DNA of 64,000 nt, taken from NCBI GenBank assembly GCA_938003835.1, contig CALKXJ010000017.1, positions 1 through 64,000 of the forward strand, read 5' to 3'. Both the position numbers and the translations under genes were made by a program. Shown piece by piece: positions 1,467-55,095 of the stretch. Numbering within the stretch: position 1 is the stretch's first letter; each line of letters begins with the position of its first letter. This DNA is from an uncultured Bryobacteraceae bacterium (GTDB lineage Bacteria > Acidobacteriota > Terriglobia > Bryobacterales > Bryobacteraceae). The notes beneath the pieces were generated by a model. That model saw only the letters and a program-made list of their open reading frames with translations, was not told the DNA's origin and made no database searches.

Positions 1467-2711
1467 TCACTCCTCCGGCCACTCGGCCAGCCAGATGCGA
1501 TTGAAGCCTTCAGCCCGCCGCGGCTCGGGCGCCTCCGGCTGCGTCCACAAACCCCAGCGGACGAGCCTCTCCAAGTCGGCGGATGTCGCTTTCAGCTCTT
1601 CGAGCCAGTAGACGCTCCCCGGCGCCGCAGCCCGGCAAGCCGCTTTGGGCAGCCAGCGGGCCAGGTCCCAGCCCGAGACGACCTGAAAGCGGGAAACGGC
1701 CGCCGCCACCAGACGGGCTTCGACGCCGTGCAGTTCGAAAATGATCGAGCTGCCGTCCTTGCGGCAACCTTCGGGCAACCAGCCTTCGGTGAAGATTCCC
1801 GGCGAGGCCAGAATCATGCGACAGCGACGGGCGTCGCAGAGCCGGCCGTAGTCCACCGAGGGCAGCTTATACTCCTTGACCTCATTTACGACGGCGGCGC
1901 GGTTGTCGCCGCCCAGGCGAAGGAGCGCGCCGTCTTTAAGCGAGCCAGGCGCCGCGCCCGTGTAGGCGACTAAAAGGCCGACGTCGAAATGTGCCCCATC
2001 CAGGTTTCCGTGCTCTTGTTTACGGAAGGCGACGGCCCGGTTAGAGAACAGCCTGCCCTCCGCGGCCGCGCGGGTCTCGCGGCTGAGACCTACGCCGACG
2101 CGCGTCTCCGACTGCCAGAGCGAGGCGACTGGAATCAGATCTTGCGCCGGATCCCAGGATCGCCGCCCCGCGAGATACTTCTTCCAGCCAGACTCGGTGA
2201 ACCACCAGCCGGGGCTCGGTTTGCTCCGCTTGTCTTGCGGCAGCACGGGCAGTGACGAGAGCTTGTAGGAGCAGACCCACCCCGGGGGAGCGCCGTCAAA
2301 GATCTTTGGGCGTAATTGGTTGACCGCGAGGTTCAGTCGCGGGCCCGTCGAACTGTTCGGCGCCGGCACGGCTTCCGCCTTCGCCGCCTCGATGACCACG
2401 TCGGCCGGCGGGGGCACCAATAGCTCGGTGCGGCCATCCGCGAAGCGCCGGGCCAGGGAACAGAGCGTCAGAGTGAACGGCCCCGGCTCCTCCGGGGTGC
2501 CGAGCTCCCGATGTCTGATCCTTCCGGCGGCGAACGAGTTCAAATCCTCTTTGCTCTCCACCAGCAGCCGCGAGCGCAGCGCCCCGGCCACCTGGCTCGG
2601 CCAAGGGGGCATCAGGCTTTCGCCAAAGCTGCCCGGCTCGCCAAACAGCCTGTTGCCGCGAAAGAGCAAGATGTCGAAAGCTTCGAGAAAGCGTATCTGG
2701 ACGTGATTCAT
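1467..2711 (-). CDS. cmr3: Cmr3, type III-B CRISPR RAMP protein binding the crRNA 5' tag
   Basis: In characterised complexes Cmr3 pairs with Cmr2 and holds the 8-nt 5' handle of the crRNA. The protein of about 414 residues starts MNHVQIRFLEAFDILLFRGN and continues with FGEPGSFGESLMPPWPSQVAGALRS, the typical Cmr3 N-terminus. The start at 2711 is set by an ATGA overlap with the cmr2 stop, which implies translational coupling; an in-frame upstream extension to 2780 would lie wholly inside cmr2. A second RAMP-like half is expected from the family but has no sharp motif I can point to. Confidence 0.92.
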   Translation of the reverse strand: MNHVQIRFLEAFDILLFRGNRLFGEPGSFGESLMPPWPSQVAGALRSRLLVESKEDLNSFAAGRIRHRELGTPEEPGPFTLTLCSLARRFADGRTELLVPPPADVVIEAAKAEAVPAPNSSTGPRLNLAVNQLRPKIFDGAPPGWVCSYKLSSLPVLPQDKRSKPSPGWWFTESGWKKYLAGRRSWDPAQDLIPVASLWQSETRVGVGLSRETRAAAEGRLFSNRAVAFRKQEHGNLDGAHFDVGLLVAYTGAAPGSLKDGALLRLGGDNRAAVVNEVKEYKLPSVDYGRLCDARRCRMILASPGIFTEGWLPEGCRKDGSSIIFELHGVEARLVAAAVSRFQVVSGWDLARWLPKAACRAAAPGSVYWLEELKATSADLERLVRWGLWTQPEAPEPRRAEGFNRIWLAEWPEE

Positions 2712-5700
2712 CGCTCGTCTCCCGCCGATCGTGTCTCGCGCGCCAGAAACTCCGCTACGCCCAGAAATTGGGCCAGCCACTCCAGCCGGTCGCCGGGCTG
2801 CTCGAGAGCCAGTTGCGTGAGCCCCTCCGCCAGCTTCGGCGCCTTGTCGGCGGCCTGATTCCCAGCCTGGCGCGCAAGTTGGTAAGCCAGCATCGTACGG
2901 AGCATGTCAGCAGAGCTCTGGTCGGGCTCCGGCAGGTCTTTGAGCCATTCCAGGGTGTTATAGACGGCCCTGCGCGAGACATCCGGATCGGCCAAAAATT
3001 TCCGCAGCCCTACGAGGAGCTCGAGCGGCTCGCCCCAATCTGCCGAGAGATTCAGCGTGCCGCCGGAGCGCTTGATGATGCGGATGTGGAATGCGTCCCG
3101 GTCGAGCTCGCGCCGCAGCCTCTTGCCGTTCTCTTCGACAACTCGGATCCGCCGGTAGCGCTTGGCCGCCTGCTCGGCGTCCCGGAGCTGGTCGAGCACG
3201 AAGCCGAGCGGCGCCATATGATGCGCGATGACCACCCCGCAGCAGATGCCGGCCCGAGTTCCCATCATCTGCATGAGGCGGCGTCCGAGGTATGCATAGC
3301 CGCGGCCTAAAAGCAACTTGCCGGAGCCGTCGAGCTTTCCAACCTCCTCCTTGCCTTCGCCGCGATAGGCCTGACGCAATTTGCTGATCGCGGAAAAGAC
3401 GTCGGCGACCGGCAGCATGGCCATGACGTCGTCGCCGCCGGAGTAAATCAGCCGCCCGAGATGCTCCTCTTCGATGATGTAGGGCACCAGCACCTGGGAG
3501 AAGTCGTTCAGAGCGCCCGAGATGCTCATATGGCGCGCGGGGGAGGGCGGACGCTGCTGAGCCGCATATTGCCGTAGCAGCGGCGCCGCTTTTAGATTCT
3601 CGATTTCGCCCCGAATCTCGGGGTGGAAGCTTTGAAGGAAGCTTGCCCCGGTGGTCCCATCCTCGCCGGACAAAATGGCGCCGAGCCGGTCCCCGTCCAT
3701 CAGAATCAGCGCATAATACGTCTCGAGCTGTGCCTCTTGATCCTGCTTCTTGTCGCCGGCGAGAAACCGGGCGATTTCGCGGCGCGCCTGGGCGTAGCAG
3801 CCCCGATCCTCCTCGACCTCACCTTGGAGCTCGCGAAGCCGGTCGAGATAACCCGGAATCAATTTGATGAAATTGCGCCGCTCTTCATCGGCTACGGTCA
3901 TCTGGATCAGTTTACGGGGCAAAGCGACGCGCTCCGCGCCCTTCTTTGCGGACCTGCTCGAGAGCTCCTGATCGACGGCTTTGCCAGCTTCCAACCACCG
4001 CTCGAGCTGATGGGCAAGGGCCATGGTGTGGGTGGAGACGACAAAACGCTCCAGGCCTCGCGGTGCAAGCTCCCGCAGCTCTTCGACGAACAGTGACGGC
4101 CAGAGGCGTTTGATGGCCGGCAGGGCGCTGAGGTGCTCACCCTCGCGGGCCCACCCCGGGCGGCGACCGGCAATCCGCGTCCATAGGGTCTCCTTGCGAC
4201 CGGATCCGGAGCCGCGCTGTCCGGGCGGCAGGCGCAGCAGCTCGCGGTCATGCGTGAGCCACTCAGCCTCTCCGGTGAGGCTGCAACGCCAGCCTTCCTG
4301 CCTCGATTGTGAAAACTGCCGCAGGCTCTTGGCCGCCGCCAGCAATCTCTCCCCAAGGTCGTAAAAGGCCGGGTACAGGACACCGGGATTGGGTTCGTAG
4401 AAGCGAACCCCTGACTCCTCGGGCCATTCGATCTGCTGGGAGAGCACCTTCCAGGCGGGACTGGCCAGGAAGCCGGCCTCCTGCTGCTCGCCAACCCCAT
4501 AAAACGGGGCCATGAAGCGGCGCAGGGGCGCCACGTCCACGCCCGTCTGCCGCTTCTCATCCTGCGGGCTTGCGAGCGAGAATGGCACGCTGGCCCAGTG
4601 AACCTCGGGGAACTCGCGGAGCTGATCGCGCACCTGCTGGTAAGCGGGAATTGACTCATCGCGCTGCTCGTTCTCTGCTTTGAATCCCGCAGTCTCTAGC
4701 AGCCGGTCGACGGTCCGAAAACCCAGCTCGAGCACCCAATCCCGAACGTTGGACGAACAGACCTTGGCAATCGATCTGACCTCGCTGGCCGGCACAATGG
4801 CGACAAAGCGGTTGGGCAAGCTCGCCCCGAACAGCGGGTTGGCGTCGGGCGGTTGCTTGCGCCAGTCGAGGTCGTCGAACAAGCGTTCCGGCAATTCCTG
4901 ATCCCGCAGGAGCCAGACGTCGGTGAGCGCCACACCCCGCAGCCGAGGAAAGAGGATGGCGTCCGGCCCAAAACGCTCGCAGACCGGCTTCATGGCCTCC
5001 CAGGCGAGGCGCGCCAACAAGTGGGAGCCGGCCCACAAGTCCTCCATCTTGCGAGCCGCCGCAATAAAGCTCTGCACGGGGCCGATGGTGAATGTCAGCA
5101 GCGCCGCGCGGCCCTCGGGATCCGCGGCAAAAGCCCCGGCAAAGGCCGAAACCAGGTCCAGATGATCCCAGATGGAGTGATCGGGCGTCCGCGTGTCGGC
5201 CGGCAAGAGCCTCCAAAGCTCGCCCAGTTTGCCGAAATCCTCCTCCTCGACCAGCTCCGGTCCGAAGCGCCAGAAGGCGAGCAGGAGTTTTTTGTAGTCG
5301 ACAGCGCCTGGACCGGGACAGACGGCTTGGCGCAGCCGCTCGAAATGAGTCAGGCTCCGGTCCTTGATATCGCCGATCTCGGTGTCGCGGAGCGTCAGGA
5401 AGCGAAGGTCCTCGCCGGTAAGGGGATGAACCAGGGCCGGATTGGCGGTCCAGCGCAGAGACACTCGCGTTGGCCATTGCGGCCGGTCGGCAGCGGCGGC
5501 CCACCAGTCGGCGCGCTTGACGATGGCCTCGAGGCCGCTTTTCCAACCATCGCGGAACAGGCAATGCTTGCCGAGTGCAGCGGTCTGCTCCGGCTCGGCC
5601 TCCAGGTCGAGTAGCTCCTTGAGCGTGCGGACCGTGCCGCCCTCATGACCCGCTGGGTCGCGAAACAGCACCAGGGCCTTCTCAGCCGGATCATGCAACC

Positions 5701-5743
5701 TCGCGGCGAGTTTGACGCGCCAGAGAAGATCGGTGTTCAACAT
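2708..5743 (-). CDS. cmr2: Cmr2/Cas10, large subunit of type III-B CRISPR complex
   Basis: Signature Cas10 protein, 1011 residues, normal for Cmr2. An N-terminal HD motif is present (H17-D18 in ARLHDPAEKAL), so a DNase centre may be intact. The Cmr2 first cyclase-like region (TFTIGPVQSFIAAARK, about residues 217-232) follows, then ALILMDGDRLG (about 678-688), and the Palm2 GGDD motif at residues 769-772 (LIYSGGDDVMAML). An intact GGDD centre predicts cyclic oligoadenylate synthesis on target recognition. The start at 5743 has GGAGG upstream, 12 bases after cmr1, and the stop overlaps cmr3. No cOA-responsive effector (Csx1/Csm6, Can1/2, CorA) is visible in this window. Confidence 0.96.
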   Translation of the reverse strand: MLNTDLLWRVKLAARLHDPAEKALVLFRDPAGHEGGTVRTLKELLDLEAEPEQTAALGKHCLFRDGWKSGLEAIVKRADWWAAAADRPQWPTRVSLRWTANPALVHPLTGEDLRFLTLRDTEIGDIKDRSLTHFERLRQAVCPGPGAVDYKKLLLAFWRFGPELVEEEDFGKLGELWRLLPADTRTPDHSIWDHLDLVSAFAGAFAADPEGRAALLTFTIGPVQSFIAAARKMEDLWAGSHLLARLAWEAMKPVCERFGPDAILFPRLRGVALTDVWLLRDQELPERLFDDLDWRKQPPDANPLFGASLPNRFVAIVPASEVRSIAKVCSSNVRDWVLELGFRTVDRLLETAGFKAENEQRDESIPAYQQVRDQLREFPEVHWASVPFSLASPQDEKRQTGVDVAPLRRFMAPFYGVGEQQEAGFLASPAWKVLSQQIEWPEESGVRFYEPNPGVLYPAFYDLGERLLAAAKSLRQFSQSRQEGWRCSLTGEAEWLTHDRELLRLPPGQRGSGSGRKETLWTRIAGRRPGWAREGEHLSALPAIKRLWPSLFVEELRELAPRGLERFVVSTHTMALAHQLERWLEAGKAVDQELSSRSAKKGAERVALPRKLIQMTVADEERRNFIKLIPGYLDRLRELQGEVEEDRGCYAQARREIARFLAGDKKQDQEAQLETYYALILMDGDRLGAILSGEDGTTGASFLQSFHPEIRGEIENLKAAPLLRQYAAQQRPPSPARHMSISGALNDFSQVLVPYIIEEEHLGRLIYSGGDDVMAMLPVADVFSAISKLRQAYRGEGKEEVGKLDGSGKLLLGRGYAYLGRRLMQMMGTRAGICCGVVIAHHMAPLGFVLDQLRDAEQAAKRYRRIRVVEENGKRLRRELDRDAFHIRIIKRSGGTLNLSADWGEPLELLVGLRKFLADPDVSRRAVYNTLEWLKDLPEPDQSSADMLRTMLAYQLARQAGNQAADKAPKLAEGLTQLALEQPGDRLEWLAQFLGVAEFLARETRSAGDER

Positions 5744-20797: not shown

Positions 20798-21819
20798 GTC
20801 TCTACACGCGCTTCCTTGGGCCGGACCCAAACATGCTCTGCCTGGTCGTTCCGCAAGGCCACCAGCGTTCCGCGCACTCGATAGGCCCGAGGATCGCCGA
20901 ATGGCGTGCGCAGCTCGGCCACCACAGTGGCCGATGGGGTCAGGCCGAGATCCAAAAGGCGGCGGCGGGCCAGTCCTCGAAACTCGGGGTCGATTTCGAC
21001 AACCTCTGCCGGCTGAAGCTCCGGGAGCTGATCGAGCGGAATCGTGCCCGGCGGGCGGACAGCGAGGTCGGGCGCGGAGCGGACATGGATGTTGGCCGCT
21101 TCGGGCAGGGTGAGCCTGAGCCGGCGCTCGCCATCCCAGACCACCACCGCCTCCGGCGAGCTTTCCAAGACCTGAAGGCGCTGGCCGGGCCTCAGCCCGA
21201 GTGCGAGGATCTCGCGGAAGAGGAACTCCGGTTCATCTTCCACATGAACTACTTCTATCTTTTCCCCTGCAAAGCAGTCACTTAACTGGCGGGCTTGAAT
21301 CTCGGTGATCGAGCCGTTCGCCAGCGGAATCGGGTCGCCGTGCGGATCACGCAGCGGGTGGCCAAGATGAGCCTCCAGCGCATCCAGGCGCTCGCGAGAG
21401 AGCGTGTGCTCAGCCCGTTCCGCCTCACTATGAACCTTCTCGAGCGGGGTCCGCAGCTCGTCGGTGAGGTAGCGCTCCCAAAGCCGGTGGGCGCGGACGA
21501 TTTCGCGCGCCCGGCGCTCGCCGTCGGGCTGGAGCTCGATATGCCCCGCCGTGGAATGGATCAAGCCTTTGGCCTCCATGCGCGCCAGCAACCGGACCAG
21601 CTTTCTGGCGGAGAGGCGCAGGGAGCCGGCCAGCGATTCTTGCGTCGCAGGTTGACCCCGCAGGGAGTACAGCAGCAGGTGCTTGAGGCCATCTTCGGTG
21701 ACTGCGCGCTCGCGTCTGAGCCGGCGGGCCCGCCAGCGCGGCACCAATCCCAGCCGGGGCGCAAACAGCAGCAGGATGAGGCCGCCGAGGAGGAACAGCA
21801 GCGAGAGGAACCCAGTCAT
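20794..21819 (-). CDS. Membrane-anchored DtxR/MntR-type regulator fused to FeoA-like domains
   Basis: 341 residues. One N-terminal membrane helix (FLSLLFLLGGLILLLFAPRLG, residues 4-22, without a signal-peptide cut site) is followed by a basic stretch, a winged helix (about 40-105; ATQESLAGSLRLSARKLVRLL), a DtxR-type dimerisation/metal domain (about 108-170; RAHRLWERYLTDEL, VHSEAERAEHTLS, LGHPLRDPHGDPIP), a first SH3/FeoA-like domain and a second FeoA domain (LARRRLLDLGLTPSATV ... YRVRGTLVALR). The usual DtxR ancillary 'EAC' reads EAE here, as in Mn-type members. It heads the feo operon. It could sense Fe/Mn and repress the operon from the membrane, or act as FeoA. Both roles are inferred. Confidence 0.85.
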   Translation of the reverse strand: MTGFLSLLFLLGGLILLLFAPRLGLVPRWRARRLRRERAVTEDGLKHLLLYSLRGQPATQESLAGSLRLSARKLVRLLARMEAKGLIHSTAGHIELQPDGERRAREIVRAHRLWERYLTDELRTPLEKVHSEAERAEHTLSRERLDALEAHLGHPLRDPHGDPIPLANGSITEIQARQLSDCFAGEKIEVVHVEDEPEFLFREILALGLRPGQRLQVLESSPEAVVVWDGERRLRLTLPEAANIHVRSAPDLAVRPPGTIPLDQLPELQPAEVVEIDPEFRGLARRRLLDLGLTPSATVVAELRTPFGDPRAYRVRGTLVALRNDQAEHVWVRPKEARVET

Positions 21820-22057
21820 GATCGGGCCTGCGGGTAAACTTCTATTTCCCGGCGGAGTTAACTACAGTTCACGCGCATTATCGCAAGAAAGCGGCGGGCG
21901 CGTCAAGCGGCCGCTCGCTGCATGAGCGCCTGGCCGATTTCAGCCACCGCTGGTCGAATTCGGCCGGGATGAGCGGCGATTTTTCCCGGCAACTCACTGC
22001 AAAACAGGCATGCGGCGTTTGGCCCGTGGCGTGCCTCTCCTTGCGGCGGAGGTCGCC

Positions 22058-24325
22058 ATGAAGCGGTTAGGGTTGCTGGCAATCGCAATGCTGGCGTGGG
22101 CGGCGTCGCCCGCTGCGGCCGAGCCGGACGAGGCTCCCGGGCGGGGCGTGGCGCGCATCAGCTTGATCAACGGCGACGTCTCGGTGCGGCGCGGCGACTC
22201 CGGCGACTGGGTGGCCGCAGCGATCAACTCGCCGGTGATCGCGCCCGACAGCGTTTTCGTCGGCGGGGGCTCCCGCGCCGAGGTGCAACTGGACTACGCC
22301 AACCTCATCCGGCTGGGCGCCAATACCGAGGTTCGCTTCGCCCAGCTCGAGGCGCGCCGCTATCAGCTACAGGTCGCCCGCGGCACGGTCACCTTTTCCG
22401 TGCTGCGCGACTCGGACCGGGACGTTGACCTGAGCACCCCGAACGTCTCGGTGAGGCCGCTCCGCAAGGGCAATTATCGGGTCACGGTGCGCGACGACGG
22501 CACCACCGAGATCACCGTCCGCAGCGGCGAAGCCGACATCTTCACCCCCCGCGGAAGCGAACTGCTGCGGCCCGGCAGAACCATGCTGGTTCGCGGCACA
22601 GCCTCCGAGCCGGAGTTTCAACTCGCGGCAGCCCTTCCGGAGGACGACTGGGACCGCTTCAACGAGCAGCGTGACCGCGATCTGCGCCGTTCTACGGCCT
22701 ACCGCTACGTCAGCCGCGACATCTATGGCGTCGAGGACCTCGATGCTTACGGCCGCTGGGTTTATGTGCCGCCGTATGGCTGGGTCTGGGCCCCGTACGC
22801 CGCTCCCGGCTGGGCGCCCTATCGTTACGGCCGCTGGGCCTGGATCGATTTCTACGGCTGGACCTGGATCGGCTACGACCCCTGGGGCTGGGCACCGTAT
22901 CATTGGGGCCGGTGGTTCTACCATGGCCCCTACGGCTGGTGCTGGTGGCCCGGCCCGATCTACACGCGCCACTATTGGCGCCCTGCGCTCGTGGCCTTTT
23001 TCGGCTGGGGCAGCTATTCCGGCTTCCACGTGGGCATTGGCGTGGGCTTCGGGCGTATCGGCTGGGTCCCCCTGGCGCCTTATGAGCCCTACTATCCCTG
23101 GTATGGACCTCGTTACTGGCGGGGCAGCCGCACCTACATCGACAACAGCGTCCACGTCGTCAACAACGTAAACATTGTCAACGTCTACCGGAACGCGCGG
23201 ATCGAGCACGCCGTCACCGCGGTGGATGCGGCCGAGTTCGGCCGGGGCCGGGTGGCGAACGTGCACCGGGCCTCGGAGGTCGAGCTCCGGCGGGTGAGCC
23301 TTGTCCGGGGCGAAGTTCCGGTCGTGCCGCAGCGCGAGAGCTTGCGCTTTGCCGACCGGCCGGTGCGGCTGGAAAGCCTTCCGGCCCAGAGCCGCGAGCA
23401 GTTCGCCGGCCGCTGGCAGCAGGCGCAACCCGCGGACCGGATTCCTTTCACCGAACACCAGCAGCGCCTGGAGCGCGTGGCGCGCCAAGTAGCCGAGGAG
23501 CAGCGGAATCCACGCCTCGGCGGCGGCGGGCGGGGAGCGATGCTCGAACCCGGGGCAGGGCAGGCCCCGCCAGAGACTGGGCGGCGCGGCTGGCGCTCCC
23601 CTTCTGAGCCAGAGCTGGCCCCGGCCGCCGGGGCGCTGGCCGAAGGCTGGAGGCGATTCGGCGAACCGGCGCGTCCTGGGCGCGAGGCCCGCGAGGTCCA
23701 GCCACGGGGGGCCCCGGAGACGGCCGAGCCCCGCAGTCGGGGCTTCGAACCGATCACTCCCCGGGCGGCGGAGAGCCGCCGCAGCGAGGAGCCCGGCGGC
23801 TGGCGGAGATTCGGGGAGCCGACGCGGCGGATGCCGGAACGTGACCCTGACACGCCTGCCGGTCTGTGGAACAGCACGCGCCCTGACTGGACGCCGCGCT
23901 CGCGCGAGCGCACGCGAATCGAGAGGCCGCAAGAGGAGGCGACCGCGCCATCCGCCCGTTGGGAGACCTTCGGCCGGCCGGGGACCTCGCGCGAGACCGA
24001 GCGCGGCCGTCCGAGCCGCGAGGAAGCCGGACCGGAGCCGTACTGGCGGGGGAGCCGGGGCGCCGAACGCGAATCGGTGCCCATCAGCCCGCCGATCATT
24101 CGCGAGCGGCCGAGCCCGCGCTGGGGCGGATCCTCCCGTTCCGGCGGGGTCTTCGGCGGAGGCGATCCGAGCCCGCGCTGGGGCGGCGCCGGCGGAAGCG
24201 AGCCACCGGCACGCGGCGGGGGAGTCTTCAGCGGCCCTCGAGGCGGCGGGGCCGAACGCTCAGGCGGAGCTGTCGGCGGCGGAGAGGCCTCGCCGCGTTC
24301 GGGCGGCTCACGGCGCGGCCGCTAA
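22058..24325 (+). CDS. Exported FecR-domain protein with Trp/Tyr-rich (DUF6600-like) region and low-complexity tail
   Basis: 755 residues from the ATG at 22058 (GGCGGAGG upstream; signal peptide MKRLGLLAIAMLAWAASPA). The FecR-type domain (ARISLINGDVSVRRGDSGDW ... ITVRSGEADIFTP) spans about residues 30-190. It is followed by a remarkable aromatic block (YGRWVYVPPYGWVWAPYA, YGRWAWIDFYGWTWIGYDP, HYWRPALVAFFGWGSY) to about 365, then VNNVNIVNVYRN, and a long Arg/Pro/Gly/Glu-rich tail with repeats such as PSPRWGG and WRRFGEP. Such proteins are common in Acidobacteria and are thought to lie in the envelope. No sigma/anti-sigma partner is adjacent. Function unknown. Confidence 0.82.
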   Translation: MKRLGLLAIAMLAWAASPAAAEPDEAPGRGVARISLINGDVSVRRGDSGDWVAAAINSPVIAPDSVFVGGGSRAEVQLDYANLIRLGANTEVRFAQLEARRYQLQVARGTVTFSVLRDSDRDVDLSTPNVSVRPLRKGNYRVTVRDDGTTEITVRSGEADIFTPRGSELLRPGRTMLVRGTASEPEFQLAAALPEDDWDRFNEQRDRDLRRSTAYRYVSRDIYGVEDLDAYGRWVYVPPYGWVWAPYAAPGWAPYRYGRWAWIDFYGWTWIGYDPWGWAPYHWGRWFYHGPYGWCWWPGPIYTRHYWRPALVAFFGWGSYSGFHVGIGVGFGRIGWVPLAPYEPYYPWYGPRYWRGSRTYIDNSVHVVNNVNIVNVYRNARIEHAVTAVDAAEFGRGRVANVHRASEVELRRVSLVRGEVPVVPQRESLRFADRPVRLESLPAQSREQFAGRWQQAQPADRIPFTEHQQRLERVARQVAEEQRNPRLGGGGRGAMLEPGAGQAPPETGRRGWRSPSEPELAPAAGALAEGWRRFGEPARPGREAREVQPRGAPETAEPRSRGFEPITPRAAESRRSEEPGGWRRFGEPTRRMPERDPDTPAGLWNSTRPDWTPRSRERTRIERPQEEATAPSARWETFGRPGTSRETERGRPSREEAGPEPYWRGSRGAERESVPISPPIIRERPSPRWGGSSRSGGVFGGGDPSPRWGGAGGSEPPARGGGVFSGPRGGGAERSGGAVGGGEASPRSGGSRRGR

Positions 24326-24354
24326 CCGAGCAAGTTGCATCTTTCTTCCCTCAA

Positions 24355-24396
24355 GGCCCGGCCCGGGCCGGCAGAGCCCGGGCGGGCCACTTTTTT
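24355..24396 (+). terminator. Rho-independent terminator after the FecR-domain gene
   Basis: Left arm GGCCCG-GCCCGGGC (24355-24368, one bulged base), right arm GCCCGGGCGGGCC (24376-24388), then two bases and TTTTTT (24391-24396). The GC stem plus U run is typical, 30 bases after the stop codon of the FecR-domain gene. Confidence 0.85.
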
Positions 24397-24431
24397 GTGT
24401 GTGGGCGGGGGATGCGGTGTTGGGGGGAATT

Positions 24432-24459
24432 AGTTTACATAATATCCATTATCGGAAAA
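24432..24459 (-). other. dif: Putative dif site (XerC/XerD chromosome-dimer resolution site)
   Basis: Read on the minus strand: XerC-like arm TTTTCCGATAA, six-base centre TGGATA, XerD-like arm TTATGTAAACT. The 28 bases agree with the published B. subtilis dif at 22 of 28 positions by my alignment, including the whole right half, and share the ATAA/TTAT inverted core with E. coli dif. The site is an AT-rich island in high-GC DNA, in a non-coding gap between convergent genes and after a terminator, as expected for dif. No search was run; an integrated-element attachment site that mimics dif is the main alternative. Confidence 0.65.
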
Positions 24460-24733
24460 TACGTTCACCCGCCCAGCATCCTAGGTCTCGCCGTGGATGG
24501 CCGCGTGGGTGGATCTGGCCCCGCACCGGGTGGCAGCCCGGCATTCGCTCTCACTGTCATCGGCGTTCCCAATTCGCCAAATCCTGGAGCAGTTCGAGAA
24601 GCTCGAACAGCCAGCCGACGCCGATAGGGCGACAGGGACGAAACAACTCGCGCCATTGGCCTTGGCATAAACTGGGTCCTCGAACTCGCCGGGACCGCCG
24701 TGTCCCGAGCCCGTGATCATCCAGACCCTGCCC
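24460..24733. other. Non-coding stretch beside the dif-like site
   Basis: About 270 bases without a convincing gene. A 79-codon open frame on the minus strand (24481-24720) has no ribosome site and an unlikely composition. I saw no repeats, tRNA or terminator. Together with the dif-like site it makes one of the longest empty gaps in the window. Confidence 0.5.
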
Positions 24734-27700
24734 TCAGAACTCCACCCGCACGTTGAACTGCACCAGCCGGCTCAGCCCGTACTGGGAGGTCACCCGCCCG
24801 AAGTTGCCGTCGGTCGGGTTGGTGACGGGCGCGCCGAAGTTGGTGTGGTTGGTCGCATTCAGCAGATCGACGTCGAAGCTCGTGCGCAACCGCTCGGTGA
24901 TGCGGAAAACGCGCTTGACCTTCACGTCCCAGTTGCGGATGCCGTCGGCGCGCAGCGCAGCCAGGCGCGTCGGAAAGACCCGGACATGGAAGCTGCCGGG
25001 CTGCGAGCCGGACCGGCCCTCGAAACCCTGAAAGCCGGCCGGAACTGCTCCCGCCCCCCGGTAGGCGATGCTCGGGTCGAACCAGACGTGGATGTCCTTG
25101 TCGTGCATCTCGTTGTGCTTGAACAGTTCGCCGATTCTGTCAAGATCGCCGTAGAAAAACCGGTTGTCCCAGTTGGTGGGCGGGCCGCTCTGGATCTGGT
25201 AGACCCAGCTCAGTTGCCAGCCGCCGACGATATGCTGGAGCGGCCCGCTGTGGATCCAGCGGCGATCCTTGCCGAAGGGCAGCTCGTAGATGGCGCTCCA
25301 GACGAAGCGGTGTGGCCGGTTGGCGTCCTGGACGCGCCAGGAAGGCTCGCGGTCGAACTCGTTGTGGTAATAATCTGACTCTTCACTATAAGAATAGGTG
25401 TACATCGCCGTGGTTTGAAAGCCCTTCGTGAATCGGCGATTGAACACCACCTGGAGGTCGTGATAGAGGTTGGCGCCTAGCGAATCGGCGAAGTCGACGC
25501 CCGGTCGCAGGCCGTTGAGCGCTCCCGAGCCGAGGTTCGGAAACGGCCTCAGCAACTGATGGACGCGGATGGTCGTGCTGGTGAAGAAGCCTTGGGTGGT
25601 CAGGAACTGGTACAGCAGCGGATTGCTTTGCGCCAGCGGCGCGAGGTTCCGGATGTTGAACGGATTCGTCACGCTCCGGTTCATGGCGTCATCGACAGCC
25701 TGCACCCGGACGTTGCCCGTGGCCCAGTACTGCTGCGGCAGGTAGTTGACCCGCTGCAACACCGGGATCTTTGCGTAGGCTCCGTTATAGGAGACGTCGA
25801 TGACCATGTCGCGCGTGATTTCGCGCTGGAGGCCGATGCGCCACCGCTGCTGCCAGGCCGGGCGGTAGTTCCTCGGCAGGAGGTTGAAGGTCGAGCCGTT
25901 TCCCTGGAGGATGTGGCCGCCGAGGCGATTGCCGTAGGGCACATCGAACCGGGTGCCATCGGCGCGCACTGGGAACGGGTCGATTATAGGGTTGCGCGTC
26001 TCCGAGAGGTTGGCCGCGGCGCCGACGCCACAGCAGAAGCTGAGCGCGTTGTCGGTAGTGAGCACGGTGGAGGTCGGCTGGCTGAAACCGGCCTGCGAGG
26101 GCCGGTCGTTATTCGGGTTCAGCGTGTCGGCCCACCAGCCGTAGCCGCTGCGGACGACCGTCTTGTCATTGATCTGGTAGACCACGCCCAAGCGCGGCAG
26201 GAAGCGGTGCGTGCCGTCGCTGTAAGTCTTGTAGCGGGTGCCAAGGTACTCCACGCCCCCGCGCACCTTGAAGTCCGACGGCGCCAGTTGCGGGATCGGG
26301 TTGGCCGCATAGGCCGCCTCGGCGAGCTCGGCAAAGGCCGGTTTGAAGTCGAGCAGGAGGCCGCCGCCGATGCCGCGGTTGAACCGCTCGGTTATGCCCG
26401 CCTCCCGCTCATAGCGCAGGCCGAGGTTCAGGCGCAGGCGGCGGCTCAGGCGCCAGTCGTCCTGAAGGTAGAGCGCGCGGTACCGGTTCGACCAGAGCGC
26501 GCTGTCGTTGGTGTCGATGGAGATGCTGTAGGGCAGCCCCATCATGAACGAGGCCCATTCCAGCCCGTGATGGGCCGCCGTGGTGGTGTCGTCCCGCTGC
26601 ATCATGAAGCGCCGGTCGAACTGGAACCGGCCGTTGTTGTAGCCGGGCCCGGCGGTGGTGGTCCAGTAGCGGCGCTCATCCCAGCCGTACTTGAGCGAGT
26701 GGCTGCCGCGAACCGTGTTCATCTGCACTCGGGCCAGGCCGGTGGTTCCGCGGATGGTGATGGCCGGGTAGGTTCCACCGAAATCCTCGATGTTCTGGAA
26801 GTCGAGCCGCGGCAGCGTGTGCAGATCGCCGACCTTCTCGTCCAGGTACTTGGGCAGCCCGACGTCGCTCGGCTTGTACTGCGTCTGCACGGGCCTTTCG
26901 GCGCCCTCGTTGAAGCGCGTCCAGCTCACGCCAATATCCAGGACGCTCGAGCTGCTGAGGGTCCAGACGTGGTTGGCGCCGCCGCCTTTATTGATGCGCA
27001 CCAGGCCGTTGGTGTGCAGGCCGCGCTTGGTCGGGTACGTCCAGTCGTATTCGTCAGCCAGCCGGTGATTCCAGTACCAGCGCCCAAAGAGCCGGTGACG
27101 CTCCGAGAGGTTGTAGTCGTAGCGGTTCACGATGGAGTTGAAGCGCTCGTCCTTGGGCATCGCCGCGGCGTACCAGTTGTTGTAGCCTTCCGGCGAAACC
27201 AGTCCCGGCACGTCGTTCGGCTGCGGGTAGAGCGGTTCGTAAAACTTATACAGCGGGTTCAGTACGGGAATGCCCTTGTTTTGCGGAAAGGGCGTCCGCA
27301 CCACGCGGCCGCCGACGAGCGTCGCCGAGCGGGGATCGTAGATGGTGAACCGCACCGGATCGATCGCCAGCAGATCTGAAAAGTCGCCCTTCCGCCAGGC
27401 CATCTTGGGCACGGTGCGGTTGATGGATGCGGTGTCTTCCGCCTTTTTCTGGTAAATGCCGTTGTAGCTGAAGAAGAAGAACAGCGTGTTCTTCAAGACC
27501 GGCCCGCCGAGCGTACCGCCGAAGTTGTTCGAACGCCCGGAGGCCTGCTTCGGTGTGTCGGGCGAAATCTTGCCCTGGCGGACCTGTTCCTCCCAGGCAA
27601 GCCGCGTAAAGTGACGCGTAGCGTTCCAGCGCTGCTGCCAGTGCTGGTCGTAGAGCGAGCCGTGAAACTCGTTCGTGCCGGCTTTGGTCATCACATTGAC

Positions 27701-28402
27701 CAGGGCGCCGGAGGTGTGGCCGACGCCGGCGTCAAAACTGGTGGTCTCGAGCTTGAACTCCTCGACGGCGTCGGCCGGCGGAACGAATCCCACGCGTCGG
27801 CCGGTTCCGGTCACCGGGGCGTTGTCGATGGTGTACTCGTTCTGCCCGACGCCGCCCATGGTGTTGAAGGCGGACGTCCCGGCGTTGTCGAACGGGCGGC
27901 GATAGGCCGGCTCACCCGTCCAGTGCATGCCCGGGGCGAGCGTGGCCAGCGCGAACGGGTTCAGGTCGTTAAAGGGCAACTGCATGATCTGCTTGTTGTC
28001 GAGCACGCGGCCGCCGCTGGCAGTGCTGGTGTCGAGCAGCGGCGCCTCGGCGGTGACTTCCACCGTCTCGGCGATCTGTCCGACCTCGAGCGCCACCTCG
28101 ACGCTCAGGCGTCCGGCGACGTTCAGCTCCAGGCCGCTCCGGAGGGCACGTTTGAAGCCGGGCGCCTCCACGGCGATGCTGTAACGGCCCGGATTGAGCA
28201 GGTTGATCTCGAAGTAGCCGGTCTCGTTCGTTACGGTCCGACTCGCGGTGTTGGTCTCGATGTTGGTGATTAACACGCTGGCGCCGGGGACCACCGCGCC
28301 TTGCGGATCGATCACCCGGCCCGTGATGCTGCCACGCCACTCCTGCCCGAGACTCGCCCAAGCGGCGAGCATGAGTACCGAAAACCGGAGCCATCGGCGC
28401 AT
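24734..28402 (-). CDS. Giant TonB-dependent receptor with carboxypeptidase-regulatory domain
   Basis: 1222 residues from the ATG at 28402, chosen because AAAGGAGAAG lies just upstream and a signal peptide follows (MRRWLRFSVLMLAAWASLGQ). A carboxypeptidase-regulatory domain (WRGSITGRVIDPQGAVVPGA ... GRYSIAVEAPGFKRAL) comes next, then a plug-like region (NEYTIDNAPVTG, VGHTSGALVNVMTKAGTNEF) and a long barrel ending FNVRVEF with a terminal aromatic residue. Same family as the 10584-14075 protein, but not closely similar. It ends in the gap opposite the dif-like site. Ligand unknown; the group may import glycans or peptides. Confidence 0.9.
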   Translation of the reverse strand: MRRWLRFSVLMLAAWASLGQEWRGSITGRVIDPQGAVVPGASVLITNIETNTASRTVTNETGYFEINLLNPGRYSIAVEAPGFKRALRSGLELNVAGRLSVEVALEVGQIAETVEVTAEAPLLDTSTASGGRVLDNKQIMQLPFNDLNPFALATLAPGMHWTGEPAYRRPFDNAGTSAFNTMGGVGQNEYTIDNAPVTGTGRRVGFVPPADAVEEFKLETTSFDAGVGHTSGALVNVMTKAGTNEFHGSLYDQHWQQRWNATRHFTRLAWEEQVRQGKISPDTPKQASGRSNNFGGTLGGPVLKNTLFFFFSYNGIYQKKAEDTASINRTVPKMAWRKGDFSDLLAIDPVRFTIYDPRSATLVGGRVVRTPFPQNKGIPVLNPLYKFYEPLYPQPNDVPGLVSPEGYNNWYAAAMPKDERFNSIVNRYDYNLSERHRLFGRWYWNHRLADEYDWTYPTKRGLHTNGLVRINKGGGANHVWTLSSSSVLDIGVSWTRFNEGAERPVQTQYKPSDVGLPKYLDEKVGDLHTLPRLDFQNIEDFGGTYPAITIRGTTGLARVQMNTVRGSHSLKYGWDERRYWTTTAGPGYNNGRFQFDRRFMMQRDDTTTAAHHGLEWASFMMGLPYSISIDTNDSALWSNRYRALYLQDDWRLSRRLRLNLGLRYEREAGITERFNRGIGGGLLLDFKPAFAELAEAAYAANPIPQLAPSDFKVRGGVEYLGTRYKTYSDGTHRFLPRLGVVYQINDKTVVRSGYGWWADTLNPNNDRPSQAGFSQPTSTVLTTDNALSFCCGVGAAANLSETRNPIIDPFPVRADGTRFDVPYGNRLGGHILQGNGSTFNLLPRNYRPAWQQRWRIGLQREITRDMVIDVSYNGAYAKIPVLQRVNYLPQQYWATGNVRVQAVDDAMNRSVTNPFNIRNLAPLAQSNPLLYQFLTTQGFFTSTTIRVHQLLRPFPNLGSGALNGLRPGVDFADSLGANLYHDLQVVFNRRFTKGFQTTAMYTYSYSEESDYYHNEFDREPSWRVQDANRPHRFVWSAIYELPFGKDRRWIHSGPLQHIVGGWQLSWVYQIQSGPPTNWDNRFFYGDLDRIGELFKHNEMHDKDIHVWFDPSIAYRGAGAVPAGFQGFEGRSGSQPGSFHVRVFPTRLAALRADGIRNWDVKVKRVFRITERLRTSFDVDLLNATNHTNFGAPVTNPTDGNFGRVTSQYGLSRLVQFNVRVEF

Positions 28403-28544
28403 AAGTCTTCTCCTTTCCGGACACGTGTGGTGTGAAAGCCGGCTGCGCGGCCGTGCGCCGTCGCTCGAAGGCCTTTGACCGGACCCTGATTCCTCCTGCG
28501 GCACTTGGGAGCCCGCAGCATCGCCTCCACCCACGCCCACGGCC

Positions 28545-28573
28545 AGCTTAGACCCGCTCACCGTCGGTGTCAA
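28545..28573 (-). promoter_or_regulatory. Candidate promoter for the giant TonB receptor
   Basis: On the minus strand a perfect TTGACA -35 (28568-28573) is followed, after 17 bases, by TAAGCT (28545-28550), a weak -10 (3 of 6). It lies about 140 bases before the start at 28402, in the divergent gap with alanine dehydrogenase. The -35 is the main support. Confidence 0.4.
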
Positions 28574-28623: not shown

Positions 28624-29736
28624 ATGATCATCGGAGTTCCGCGGGAAATTAAAGACCACGAAACGCGCGTCGGGCTCGTGCCGAGCGGGGTCTCTGAGCT
28701 TGTCGAGCACGGTCACCGGGTTCTGGTGGAGGCGGGCGCGGGCGCCGGCTCGACCATCTCCGACCAGGAGTATCAGGTGGCGGGCGCGGAGATCGTGGCC
28801 TCGGCGCGCGAAGTCTGGCAGCGTGCTGAACTCGTCGTCAAGGTCAAGGAGCCGCAGCCGGCCGAGTACGACTTCCTGAGGCCCGGCCTGGTCCTGTTCA
28901 CTTACCTTCACTTGGCGCCGTTGCCCGACCTGACCGAGCGGCTGATCGCCTCCGGAGTGACGGCCATCGCCTACGAGACCATTCGGGAACGGGACGGTTC
29001 CCTGCCCCTGCTGACGCCGATGAGCGAAGTGGCCGGGCGCATGGCCGTGCAGATCGGGGCCAAGTACCTGGAAGCACCCAATGGGGGGCGCGGCATCTTG
29101 CTTGGCGGCGTGCCGGGCGTGCCGCCGGCCAACGTGCTGATTCTCGGCGGCGGCGTGGTGGGCCATAACGCCGCCAAGGTGGCGCTCGGCATGGGGGCCC
29201 GAGTCACCGTCGTGGACAAGAACCTGAACCGGCTGCGCCAGATCGACGACATCTTCAACGGCGAGGTCAACACGCTCGCCTCGAGCATCTGGACGATCCG
29301 CGAGTCGATCCGGCACGCCGACCTGGTGATCGGCGCCGTGCTCATTCCCGGCGCCGCCGCTCCGAAGCTGGTTCGGCGGGACATGCTCGGTCCGATGAAA
29401 AAAGGCGCGGTCATGGTGGATGTTTCCATCGACCAGGGCGGCTGTTTCGAAACCAGCCGCCCGACCACCCACACCGATCCGATCTTTTTCGTCGATGAAG
29501 TGCTTCATTATTGCGTCGCAAACATGCCGGCGGCGGTGCCCCACACCTCGACCTACGCGCTGACCAACGCGACGTTCCCCTACCTGCGGGCGCTCGCCGA
29601 CAAAGGCGTCATCCAGGCTTGCCAGGACGATCCGGCGATCGCCGAGGGGGTGAACGTCTTTCACGGCGAGATCACTCACCCAGGCGTGGCCGAATCGCAG
29701 GGTCGACCGTGGAGGCCCCTCAGCGAGCTGTGGTGA
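28624..29736 (+). CDS. ald: Alanine dehydrogenase
   Basis: NAD-dependent enzyme that interconverts L-alanine with pyruvate and ammonium in the cytoplasm. 370 residues, the normal family length. It starts [21 protein letters not shown]15, K75 and H96 fall at the numbered positions of the known substrate-binding and catalytic residues. The Rossmann motif is [15 protein letters not shown], and [16 protein letters not shown] near the C-terminus is a family hallmark. The start at 28624 is set by this alignment; the in-frame ATG at 28567 would add 19 atypical residues. It links amino-acid use to central carbon and nitrogen metabolism. Confidence 0.97.
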
Positions 29737-35829: not shown

Positions 35830-38800
35830 CTATCGCACCAGCACCGAAACCGGACTGGACGAGACTCCGCCGAGGCGCACTTCGACCGGTTGCCTGCCGG
35901 GGCTGATCTGCACTGGCACCTGCACGTTGATCTGATAGAGACCGGTCCAGCCGGGCACATGGCCGCTGAAACCTACTGCCGCGCTCACACCTCCGATTGT
36001 GACCTGTGGCCGTTCAACAGTCTCCTCGAGTCCTAAGGACGGGTTGAACCTGACGGGGCCCAAACCCGTCGCGTAGATCTCCAGCCACTGGCCCGGTGCA
36101 GCCGGTCGTTCCGCCGTCGAGCGTCCAGTTCCGGCCACGGTGGCTGCCGCGGTGCCGTCCGGAAGGACGAAGATGGCCGGCGCAACGGCCAACAGGCGGA
36201 GGGACACGGGCTCGGAGACGCCAAAGGGCGTCACGACACGCAGCTCGGCGAGACCCGGCTGCGCTTCGAGCGGCACGACAAAATTGATCTGCGAGTCGCT
36301 GGCGTAATGCAGCCTGGCTTTTCGCCCGTTGACCAGCACCTGCACTCCCTCGAGCCTCTCGGGCAGCGGAAGCTCCCGCGCGCCGGCCGTGACGCCGCCG
36401 GCCAGATTCGCGCCGAAGATAGTGGCAAACGAGCCAGGCGCAAGCTCCGGCGAGTAAGCGGCTGCGTTCACCACGCCTCCGGCTGCCACACTGGGCCGGC
36501 CCGTGGCCGTCACGGCGATCACCGTGGCGGCGACATCAGGAGCGCCGCCGGCCACCGTGATTCGAAGGAGGTTCCTTCCCTGCCCCGGCGTCCAGACAAA
36601 GCGGGCCAAGCCGGTTTCATCGGTGACCGGCTCAGCCGGTTCGACGCTTCCGCCGCCTTCGATGGCGACCCTGAGGCGGATGCCCGCATAGGGCAGCTCG
36701 TTGGCGTCGCTGAGGCGAACGACCACTGGTTCGCGCAGAGGCACTCCCGGCGAGGCTGACTGCCGATCTCCGGAGACCACCAGGAGGCGCAGGTCGGCCG
36801 GCGAGGCAAGCACCTGGATACGCGCCGCCGCTTCCTCGTAGACGCCGCCGGGTATGCTCGCCTGCAACTCGCCGACACCGGCCCTCAGCCCGCGAACGAG
36901 GAAGCTCGTGCTCGATTCTCCGGCGCGGATCATCACTGAACCGGGCAGCCCGAGGGCCCCGTCCGGCGAGTTCAGGAGCACGGTCAGATCGGCTTTCGCA
37001 GGCGATTGCAGACTCACCGTCACCGGCGCAGCCCCGCCGAGTAGGACGCCCGCTGCCGGAAAGGCCGAAAGCTGCAACGCCCTGCGCAGAGTCGTGTCTG
37101 CGAAAGCCCGGCCGCCTGTGGCCCGTGCGAAGAATCCCTCAAACTCGCGCCGGTAGCGGTCGATCTGCTCGACCGCCGCGGCCTCGTTCGCACTGCCGGG
37201 ACGCGTCACGAGGATGAAGGCGAAGCGGAACCTCCGCTGCGATACAGTGTGATCGGGCGTCCGCCGTCCCTCTGCGGCAATCACTTCCTCGATCGAGATG
37301 TTCCGCCGCGTCCCGTTGAAGGAGACGCCAGGCTGGGGCATGCGTCCCGGGTTGGTAATGGAGGAGTTGACCACCAGGAAGGTGTCCGGGACCTCCCAGG
37401 GCGGGCGCAGGCCCATCAGGTACTGGTCGAGAGGCGAAAAGCCTTCCACCGTCGCGACGGTGACAAAACGGCCGGCCTCGGCGGGGCCGGGACAACTCTG
37501 AACCTGCCGATCGCAGATCCGGTTCCCTTCGAGCAGCGATGCTTCGGAGTTGAACGAGAAGTTCCAGTGGGCCAACTGCCGGCCGAGCATCGGCCGGGCG
37601 CGCGGATCGGCCGGGTCGCGGACGCTCGCGTAGGCCAGGAACAGGTGCCCGGCCTCGTGCCCGAGCACCGTAAGCGGCGTGTCGCGGGCCGGGCTGCGCG
37701 CCGACAGGATGGCGTTCGGATCGGCGGGGTACTGGCCGAGGTGCCCCATGTTGAGCACGGCCTGAAGGCGCCGCGGCGAGCCGAATTCGCGAGCGGCATC
37801 CACGGGCGGATCACCGTAACCGCTCCGGTTGTTGCGCACGGTTACCTCGTAAGCGACGGCGCCGGAGGAGGCCTCGATGCTGAGGTTGTTATAAATGACG
37901 AGGTAATCGTAGGCATCCTCGTGCGTCTCATAGAACTTCTGCGCCACGAGCACGATGTCCAGCTCTTCGACGTCGGTGAAGCGCTCCACTACGGCGCCGG
38001 CAAACTCTTCCGTGCTGCCGCTCAGAAAGGAGACCACCGCCGTGGAGCCCTGGAGGCCGCCCGGAGCAATGCCGACGATGGCCGTTCTCGAAGTGACGCC
38101 CGAGTAAGCAAACTCGATCCGGCCGCCGGCATAGAGGCGCACCTGAAAGGTCTGCCGCGCGCCGGTGCCGAATTCGACGAACTCGGGCACGGAAACCCAG
38201 CTCGCCACCACGCGGTCGGGCTCCAGCAGCACATGCACGCCGGCGGCGGCCCGCGACGGGTCCAGATCGCGGAACAGCGGAGCAATCCTGGGCGGGCCGG
38301 CCGTGACGCGCCCGAGCGAGCGGGCCGAGGTGGAGGTGTCCGGCTCGTTGAAGGTCAGGTTACCGTCGGAGTTGACGTAGACGGAACGGTAGCGGGCGCC
38401 AAAGAACGGAAAAACAAACGGCAGCTCCACCAGGCGCGCATCGTCGTCGTCAAAGCCGGCGATCACGCGGCCGCGGAAGGCCGCCTCGGCGTCATAGCTC
38501 GCCTCGCCGACCTCGAACCGGTAGCGCGACGCAGCGGCGTCGGAGGGCAGCAAGCGCACGGTGCGCCGGTCGAGATTGAACGGGTTGCGGCGGGAGACGA
38601 TGTCGCCGGTGTCTTCGAGGATCGCAATATGGCCGGCGTCGCGCGCGGCGGGCCGCTGGCGCACGTCCAGGCTGAGCGGCCGCAACCCCCGCAAAGCCCG
38701 TAGCTTCTGCGCCTGCCGGTGAAGCTGGACCTCTTCCTCGCGACTGTCGCGGTGCGTCCCGCAGAGCCCTTTCTCCTCGCGCGCGCCCAGCGGGACTCGA

Positions 38801-45028: not shown

Positions 45029-45996
45029 CTTTTTTGGCGGCGGCCGGCCTTGTCGGGTTCCTGCCCGCGGCGGCAGCCATCTGGCCTGAGGAGTTTTACG
45101 GGCTCAAACGTGTCGCCCTCGAGACGGTGAAACCCGACCCGGACCCGGTGTGGCAAGAATACGGCTTCGAGCAGGGCGAAATTGCCGATTACCGCGGCGA
45201 GGGGGTGCGCTTGAGGGCGACTGCCTGGCGTTTCGCCGACTCTACCTCCGCGCTGGCCTTCTATCAGTGGCAGCGACCGCAGGGCTATCGGCGCGCCGAG
45301 ATCGTGCCGCTGTCGGTCGAATCGCCGACAGCGCTGTTTCTGGCCCACGGCAACTATGTCTTCCATTTCGAGGGCAGAAAGCCGACCATCGAGGAGCTGG
45401 CCGGGCTGTATCTCGTGCTCCCGATGGTAGAGACGTCCGCTCTGCCCACCCTGCCCTCCTATCTGCCGGAAGGCGACCGCGTGGAGCGCTCCGAGCGCTT
45501 CGTCATCGGTCCGGAAAGCTTGCGGAAGTTCGAGCCGCGCATACCGGCCTCGGTGGCGGCCTTTCAATACTCTCCGGAGGCCCAGCTTGCCAAGTACAAG
45601 ACCGACCTGGGAAACATCAGCCTGGCCGTCTTCTCCTATCCGACGCCGCAGATCGCGCGGGAGCGCCTGGAGCAGTTCCGGACCTTGCCGGGCGCCATTG
45701 TCAAGCGGAGCGGCCCGCTGCTGGTGGTCCTTTTCGACGCCGCGGATGCCGAGGCCGCACAGCAGTTGCTCGCCAAGGTCAACTACCGGGCTACGATCGT
45801 CTGGGATGAGGCCACCGGATCGGAGGCGGCCAAGCTGGCCGACCTGCTGCTGACGGTGGGTGCGCTGGTCGGGCTGTTGCTCCTGACCGCACTGGCGGTG
45901 GGCTTCGTCATCGGCGGCGGGCGTTTCCTCTACTTCGGGCGAAAAGGGGCCGAGAAGCGGGACCCGATGATCCTGCTTCATCTCGAAGACCGATAA
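45013..45996 (+). CDS. Exported membrane-anchored protein of unknown function (DUF6599-like)
   Basis: 327 residues from the ATG at 45013, which overlaps the end of secA by 16 bases. A signal peptide ([22 protein letters not shown]) precedes [40 protein letters not shown]-terminal membrane helix ([21 protein letters not shown]) comes shortly before the end. It looks like the exported DUF6599-type proteins seen behind secA in related genomes, but I hold this name loosely. Translational coupling to secA suggests a secretion-related role. Confidence 0.7.
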
Positions 45997-48430: not shown

Positions 48431-49525
48431 CTACTGGAGCTTGCCCCTGCCTTCCACCCGCCAGATCTGCTTGACGTGCTCGCCGCGGATGCCGTAGACC
48501 ACTTCGTGGAGATTCATCGCCACGCAGACGTGGTTGGGCAGCACACGGAGGCGGTCTCCCACTCGGAAGCTCGCGCCTGAGTCGGCCAGGTCGACGTAGC
48601 CGTGCTCTTCGTTCATCTGGAAGAACCGCGCCCGCGGCGCCTCGAGAATCTCGCCAAACGTCCTCTCGCCGGCCGGCAGCAAGAGGTCCGACGAGAAGGT
48701 CTTCGAGCCGCCGTCGATGATCAGGCCATTCCTGCGCGAGGTGGAGACCACGGTCACCAGGATGGTCACGGCGCAATCGCGGCGCTCGCAGGCCCCGCAG
48801 GCCACGGTGTTGCGGTCGTTGAAAATATAGGTGCCGGGACGAATCTCGTTGAGCCCTTCGATTTCGTGGGAGTGAAACAGGGTGGGTGTGGAGCCCCCGC
48901 TGACAACGTGGGTGGCCAGGCCGGCGCGGCGAAAATCCTCCACGGCTCCCCGGACTGTCGCTGACAGTTCGGCCAGCGCCTGGCGGGCGCCATCGTCGTT
49001 GCCGCGGATATGTCCCGGATAGAAGGCGATGCCGCGCAGGCGCAGGGGGGCAAGCGAGTCGATGGCGCGGCCCAGCTCGAGGAGCTCCGGACCCGGGCGG
49101 ACGCCGACCCTTCCCATGCCCACGTCCATCTCGGCCAGCACGTTGATCTTCAGCCCCGCGGCCTGAGCCGCGCTCGAGAGCTGGGAGGCCGCCTCGAAGC
49201 TGTCGAGCGCCACCGTCATTTCGGTGCGCCGCGCCACCTCCATGAGCCGCTCGAGCTTCTGCCTGCCGATCACCGGGTAGGCCACGAGCATGTCCGGCGG
49301 CTCGGCGCCCAGCATCACCTCCGCTTCGCCCACCTTGGCGACGGTCAGGCCGACGGCTCCGGAGTCGAGCTGGCGCCGGCCGAGCGCGGGGATCTTGTGG
49401 GTCTTGGTGTGGGGCCGCAGGCGGAGCTGATGCGAGCGGGCGTAGTCTGCCACGCGCTGGAGATTGCGCTCCATGACGTCCAGATCGACGAGAAGCGCCG
49501 GGGTGTCGAGCTCGGAGATGTGCAT
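48431..49525 (-). CDS. D-serine dehydratase/D-threonine aldolase family (PLP and zinc)
   Basis: 364 residues with the alanine-racemase-like N-terminal barrel. PLP-lysine region RPHTKTHK (K41 probably forms the Schiff base), LDTPALLVDLDVMERN at the N-terminus, and GTYIFNDRNTVA. The C-terminal metal site reads LPNHVCVAMN: H332-x-C334, as in eukaryotic-type D-serine dehydratase, whereas D-threonine aldolases have H-x-D. So D-serine dehydratase (D-serine to pyruvate and ammonia) is the better guess. It lies 12 bases downstream of an exported protein on the same strand. Substrate inferred. Confidence 0.8.
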   Translation of the reverse strand: MHISELDTPALLVDLDVMERNLQRVADYARSHQLRLRPHTKTHKIPALGRRQLDSGAVGLTVAKVGEAEVMLGAEPPDMLVAYPVIGRQKLERLMEVARRTEMTVALDSFEAASQLSSAAQAAGLKINVLAEMDVGMGRVGVRPGPELLELGRAIDSLAPLRLRGIAFYPGHIRGNDDGARQALAELSATVRGAVEDFRRAGLATHVVSGGSTPTLFHSHEIEGLNEIRPGTYIFNDRNTVACGACERRDCAVTILVTVVSTSRRNGLIIDGGSKTFSSDLLLPAGERTFGEILEAPRARFFQMNEEHGYVDLADSGASFRVGDRLRVLPNHVCVAMNLHEVVYGIRGEHVKQIWRVEGRGKLQ

Positions 49526-52739: not shown

Positions 52740-52806
52740 CCGCCGCTGCTAAGCTAGCATTGTTTCTGAGAAGCCGGGAGTCGAAGCTTCCGGCGGATGC
52801 TCCTCG

Positions 52807-55095
<2,289 letters not shown>

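Follow-up and report, generated by a model that had tools for sequence, protein, structure and literature searches.

The dif site is the spot where XerC and XerD separate joined chromosome copies before cell division. The closest described sites are those of B. subtilis (ACTTCCTAGAATATATATTATGTAAACT) and E. coli, both printed in Kono 2011 (PMC3025954). With a Firmicutes-type profile, that paper also predicted dif in three of three Acidobacteria. The motifs through which FtsK and XerD touch each other are given as RQ-QQ in XerD and QR-GN in FtsK in a second paper (PMC5357621).

The window, that is, the whole 64-kb stretch of DNA analysed here, carries on its minus strand, at positions 24432-24459, a 28-bp site that is almost certainly the single chromosomal dif of the host bacterium, a function predicted from sequence. 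Since dif has already been predicted in three of three Acidobacteria, the site belongs to a known kind; those three, too, were found with a Firmicutes-type profile. The preliminary description had named the site a putative dif. This identity is supported by its layout, its single copy, the corresponding sites of relatives, the host's XerC-like, XerD and FtsK genes, the KOPS around it and a recurrent neighbour gene.

The site reads TTTTCCGATAA-TGGATA-TTATGTAAACT and follows the 11-6-11 plan of dif, with an XerC arm (24449-24459), a 6-bp centre (24443-24448) and an XerD arm (24432-24442). The two 11-bp arms are partly inverted repeats of each other, matching in this way at 6 of 11 positions. With the B. 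subtilis dif the site shares the layout, 22 of 28 positions overall, as first claimed, and the XerD arm at 11/11; it differs from it in the XerC arm (7/11) and the centre (4/6). The right arm described earlier as complete is this XerD arm, in the B. subtilis orientation. The core, also described as complete, is so only in part: four centre positions equal those of the B. subtilis dif and the other two differ. The E. coli dif matches at 20 of 28 positions, and the same octamer, GGGNAGGG, converges on the site in both cases. That an AT-rich patch of GC-rich intergenic DNA should resemble dif by mere chance is extremely improbable. Other weak matches do occur in the window, at 15-17 of 28 positions, and the runner-up place for the B. 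subtilis dif scores 15/28; but in 200 simulated windows (first-order Markov) the top score per window was 15-18, against 22 here, and similar sites recur across genera, with a switch of KOPS orientation at the site.

The host genome is a draft of 5,001,867 bases in 38 contigs, 100% complete. A single genome copy, proposed at the outset as a check, is what we found: the 5.0-Mb draft contains one match with up to three mismatches allowed. A half-site pattern, with up to two mismatches, yields one further and poorer match, on contig C13. These counts bear on a non-chromosomal reading of the site, as a plasmid Xer site or as a dif-like site at which a mobile element of IMEX type has integrated. 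Elements that use Xer do leave dif-like sites, and the contig is only 65.5 kb long in a draft of 38; yet no two dif-like att sites flanking an element were found in the genome or in the 64-kb window, where the runner-up is the 15/28 match given above. With no second dif-like copy there is therefore no attL/attR pair and no visible Xer-integrated element, and the Xer-type integration site, offered earlier as the other reading, finds no support. The surrounding genes are of chromosomal type (RNase J, FeoB-like and alanine dehydrogenase, among others), such sites lie again near a homologue of the same neighbour gene in relatives, and KOPS converge on them across tens of kb. Altogether, we consider an element or plasmid origin very unlikely and retain the chromosomal dif.

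The site is conserved well beyond its host. The pattern ATAATNNATATTATGTAAAC, with up to two mismatches, occurs in 33 of 61 genomes (the host and 60 relatives), in one copy each; the reversed pattern, used as a control, has one match in total over the 61. The pattern ATAANNNNTATTATGTNAA occurs exactly in 123 of 299 genomes of the class, the host included, as a single copy in 122 and in two copies in one (G077); its reversed control gives three matches over the 299. No match was obtained in 28/61 and 176/299 genomes, respectively; therefore, sites there may have diverged, been lost in draft gaps or be truly absent. The exact 20-base core is also present in 32 stretches of named genomes, of several phyla by title.

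We derived a consensus, ACTTCCGATAACATATATTATGTAAACT, from the 29 sites of the ATAATNNATATTATGTAAAC search with a given locus, the host's own site being left out. Twelve of its 28 positions are invariant, the selection pattern itself covering positions 8-27. Outside the pattern, TTCCG at positions 3-7 is kept in 22, 24, 27, 22 and 26 of the 29 sites, respectively, and the last T in 27. The host site equals this consensus throughout the XerD arm (11/11) and at 9/11 positions of the XerC arm, where the two outermost bases differ.

As claimed before, the site lies in a convergent gap. It is 408 bp long and separates a FecR/DUF6600 gene on the XerD side (22010-24325, plus strand), recognized by Pfam, from a gene on the XerC side (24734-28573, minus strand) for an outer-membrane beta-barrel protein with a carboxypeptidase regulatory-like domain. 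Two mechanical open reading frames, 23841-24716 and 23959-24627 (plus strand), span dif and, in a different frame, part of the FecR/DUF6600 gene. Among the relatives, 20 of 29 sites fall within a run of 100 or more codons without a stop; such runs are common in GC-rich DNA. The terminator placed before the site is plausible: a hairpin at about 24355-24388, followed by T6 at 24391-24396, folds at -32 kcal/mol (z -2.2) and is probably the intrinsic terminator of the FecR/DUF6600 gene (24355-24396, plus strand), though absent from the output of a simple terminator scan. The dif site lies 35 bp beyond it.

By tblastn, 11 of 20 relatives have a FecR/DUF6600 homologue at most 5 kb from dif, in all 11 on the XerD side, as in the window. 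An Acidobacteriota contig (L116) likewise has a FecR/DUF6600 homologue (42% identity) adjoining a site with the shared 20-base core. The recurrence of this neighbour suggests vertical inheritance of the dif locus and, with the L116 match, that the host may be an acidobacterium. Near the contig start, the window also holds a Cas10/Cmr2 gene (2708-5743, minus strand), which points to a type III-B CRISPR system.

The strongest evidence for dif is the polarity of the FtsK guide octamer (KOPS) GGGNAGGG towards the site. On the host contig, 10 of 13 KOPS agree with a switch at dif; the switch fits best at 23.6-24.7 kb, so that orientation flips inside 1.2 kb containing the site. On the plus strand, one GGGGAGGG of KOPS type (3540-3547) and two GGGCAGGG (21103-21110 and 23553-23560, the last before the switch) point towards dif. 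On the minus strand, GGGCAGGG at 24726-24733 is the first after the switch; it also points towards dif, as do GGGCAGGG at 29000-29007, 36578-36585, 45449-45456 and 51623-51630, and GGGAAGGG at 49108-49115. The exceptions, all on the plus strand and directed away from dif, are two GGGAAGGG (51191-51198 and 54372-54379) and one GGGGAGGG (51234-51241). These three contrary sites (51191-54379) fall in a stretch of 68-71% GC, in which a heavy-metal P-type ATPase gene also lies; this is possibly acquired DNA.

For comparison, 20 relatives were hand-picked for contig room, before counting, from 53 genomes of the same family with a site, and 20 kb were counted on each side of dif (one side being 11.9 kb). 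Their flanks contain 133 GGGNAGGG towards dif and 23 away, with an excess towards it in 18 of the 20 genomes, a tie in G171 and a reversal in G032. Pooled with the host window (5:0 within 20 kb on each side) and G008 (33:3), the 22 genomes give 171:26, which places GGGNAGGG first when all octamers with a single inner N are ranked by the difference divided by the root of the sum. By the same ranking, the top exact octamer in the pool is GGGCAGGG (104:9). The best pooled switch lies at +250 bp from dif, with 138 of 161 sites agreeing, and positions from -500 to +500 bp come within one of that count. The reversed motif GGGANGGG is somewhat polarised in the 20 relatives (84:47), where GGGACGGG gives 21:24. 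A second polarised form, GNAGGGAA, reaches 142:33 in the dif flanks of the same genomes, and 89:32 where no GG precedes it; maybe it is a lineage form of KOPS. Compared with the E. coli KOPS GGGNAGGG, the commonest polarised form here is GGGCAGGG, with polarised GNAGGGAA in addition.

In 40 sampled stretches of G008, all 21 KOPS on the arm from dif to dnaA are minus, and the opposite arm has 30 plus and 10 minus. Among genomes of other families, GGGNAGGG stands at 56:14 (towards:away) in G060 (13 sampled stretches) and at 30:24 in G047 (20 sampled stretches), with no clear polarity over the latter chromosome; in G271, GGGCAGGG before dif is found 30 times towards and 20 away among the matches listed (n=50). 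The 32 named-genome stretches with the 20-base core show 43 GGGNAGGG towards the site and 4 away. A targeted search of the open-access literature for KOPS and FtsK in Acidobacteria gave Kono 2011 alone; earlier work on KOPS in this group is possible outside it.

Taking dnaA as a stand-in for the origin, we located dif relative to it in the five relatives with both on one contig; in the remaining genomes queried, dnaA was on a different contig or, in G314, not found. In three of the five, dif and the antipode of dnaA are no more than 5% apart, the distance from dnaA to dif being 48.6% of the chromosome in G008, 45.6% in G047 and about 46% in G271. In G318, at about 36% of 3.7 Mb, dif is off the antipode; this is probably the case in G076 as well, where dnaA is at the start of the contig and dif at 4.61 Mb in a genome of 6.3 Mb (rounded sizes are used for G271, G318 and G076). 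On contig 1 of G076, among the GGGCAGGG matches listed, those below 0.51 Mb comprise 13 minus and 4 plus, and all are plus from 0.57 to 3.0 Mb; polarity among them diverges at about 0.53 Mb, about 0.5 Mb from dnaA, hinting at an origin elsewhere than dnaA or at an inversion.

GC skew, the check proposed first, is uninformative, because the draft genome is split into 38 contigs and the skew around the site carries an origin's sign: the cumulative skew of the window has its minimum near 22 kb. On the host contig, skew differs little between the two sides of dif (-0.013 and +0.016). In G008 (6.69 Mb, sampled) it shows no clear switch and was therefore dropped as evidence either way. In G060 it is mostly positive left of dif; over G008, G047 and the 20 relatives, its sign around dif is not consistent. 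The chromosome terminus, which the earlier proposal placed in the window, is to be read as the FtsK/Xer terminus, the point on which KOPS converge.

The host encodes the expected machinery. Its XerD scores 351 bits, above the curated cut-off. A second Xer protein fits XerC (311.9 bits) better than XerD (268.1 bits), its score lying below the 335 bits of the curated XerC cut-off. The genome also has three weaker tyrosine recombinases. The FtsK gamma domain scores 96.6 bits, above its curated cut-off, and can be aligned to FtsK gamma domains of solved structure. Its helix reads GYGRAARLLD, against GYNRAARMIE and, in E. coli, GYNRAARIIE. The XerD C-terminus is RLQSIVDTHHPRA, against RLRQLHQQHHPRA in E. 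coli. As we read the alignments, the host XerD keeps none of the RQ-QQ residues, and of QR-GN the host FtsK keeps QR alone.

It is conceivable that the site is a relic, inherited by a lineage in which Xer resolution is no longer in use: the XerD and FtsK gamma parts that touch in E. coli differ in the host, and the two outermost bases of the XerC arm deviate from the consensus of relatives. Nevertheless, the reading frames of XerD, the XerC-like protein and FtsK are all open, KOPS on the host contig stand at 10:3, and the XerD arm equals the relatives' consensus. We regard a relic as having a next to negligible probability; a dif in current use is the reading we keep.

On this basis, dimer resolution in the host would proceed as follows. 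Recombination between sister chromosomes would give a dimer. At the closing septum, FtsK would load on GGGNAGGG-type motifs and pump DNA to the point where they converge, which would bring the two copies of dif together. The FtsK gamma domain would then activate XerD on the TTATGTAAACT arm, and XerC, on TTTTCCGATAA, would complete the exchange over the 6-bp centre TGGATA, resulting in two monomers. The sequence shows directly that the site exists, that it is unique in the draft and conserved, that the three genes are present and that the guide motifs converge on it. Binding, the order of strand exchange and the resolution of dimers are carried over from E. coli and B. subtilis, and we infer that they apply here.

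It is possible, to the point that we see the arguments as evenly balanced, that the guide motif stays near-constant while co-evolution changes the surfaces of FtsK and XerD by which it is read and the signal relayed. A family with nearly no skew would then keep a strong E. coli-like code around dif, made of GGGCAGGG and the extended GNAGGGAA, despite a changed FtsK gamma helix and changed FtsK-XerD contacts, and KOPS polarity would locate the terminus in drafts for which skew fails to do so. In the host, the segregation terminus is fixed in a draft of 38 contigs with no usable GC skew. The 28-bp target, together with the guide-motif prediction, is available for tests of Xer recombination in the host's group, and our results suggest that dif, combined with KOPS polarity, may be used as a terminus marker for the host's family.
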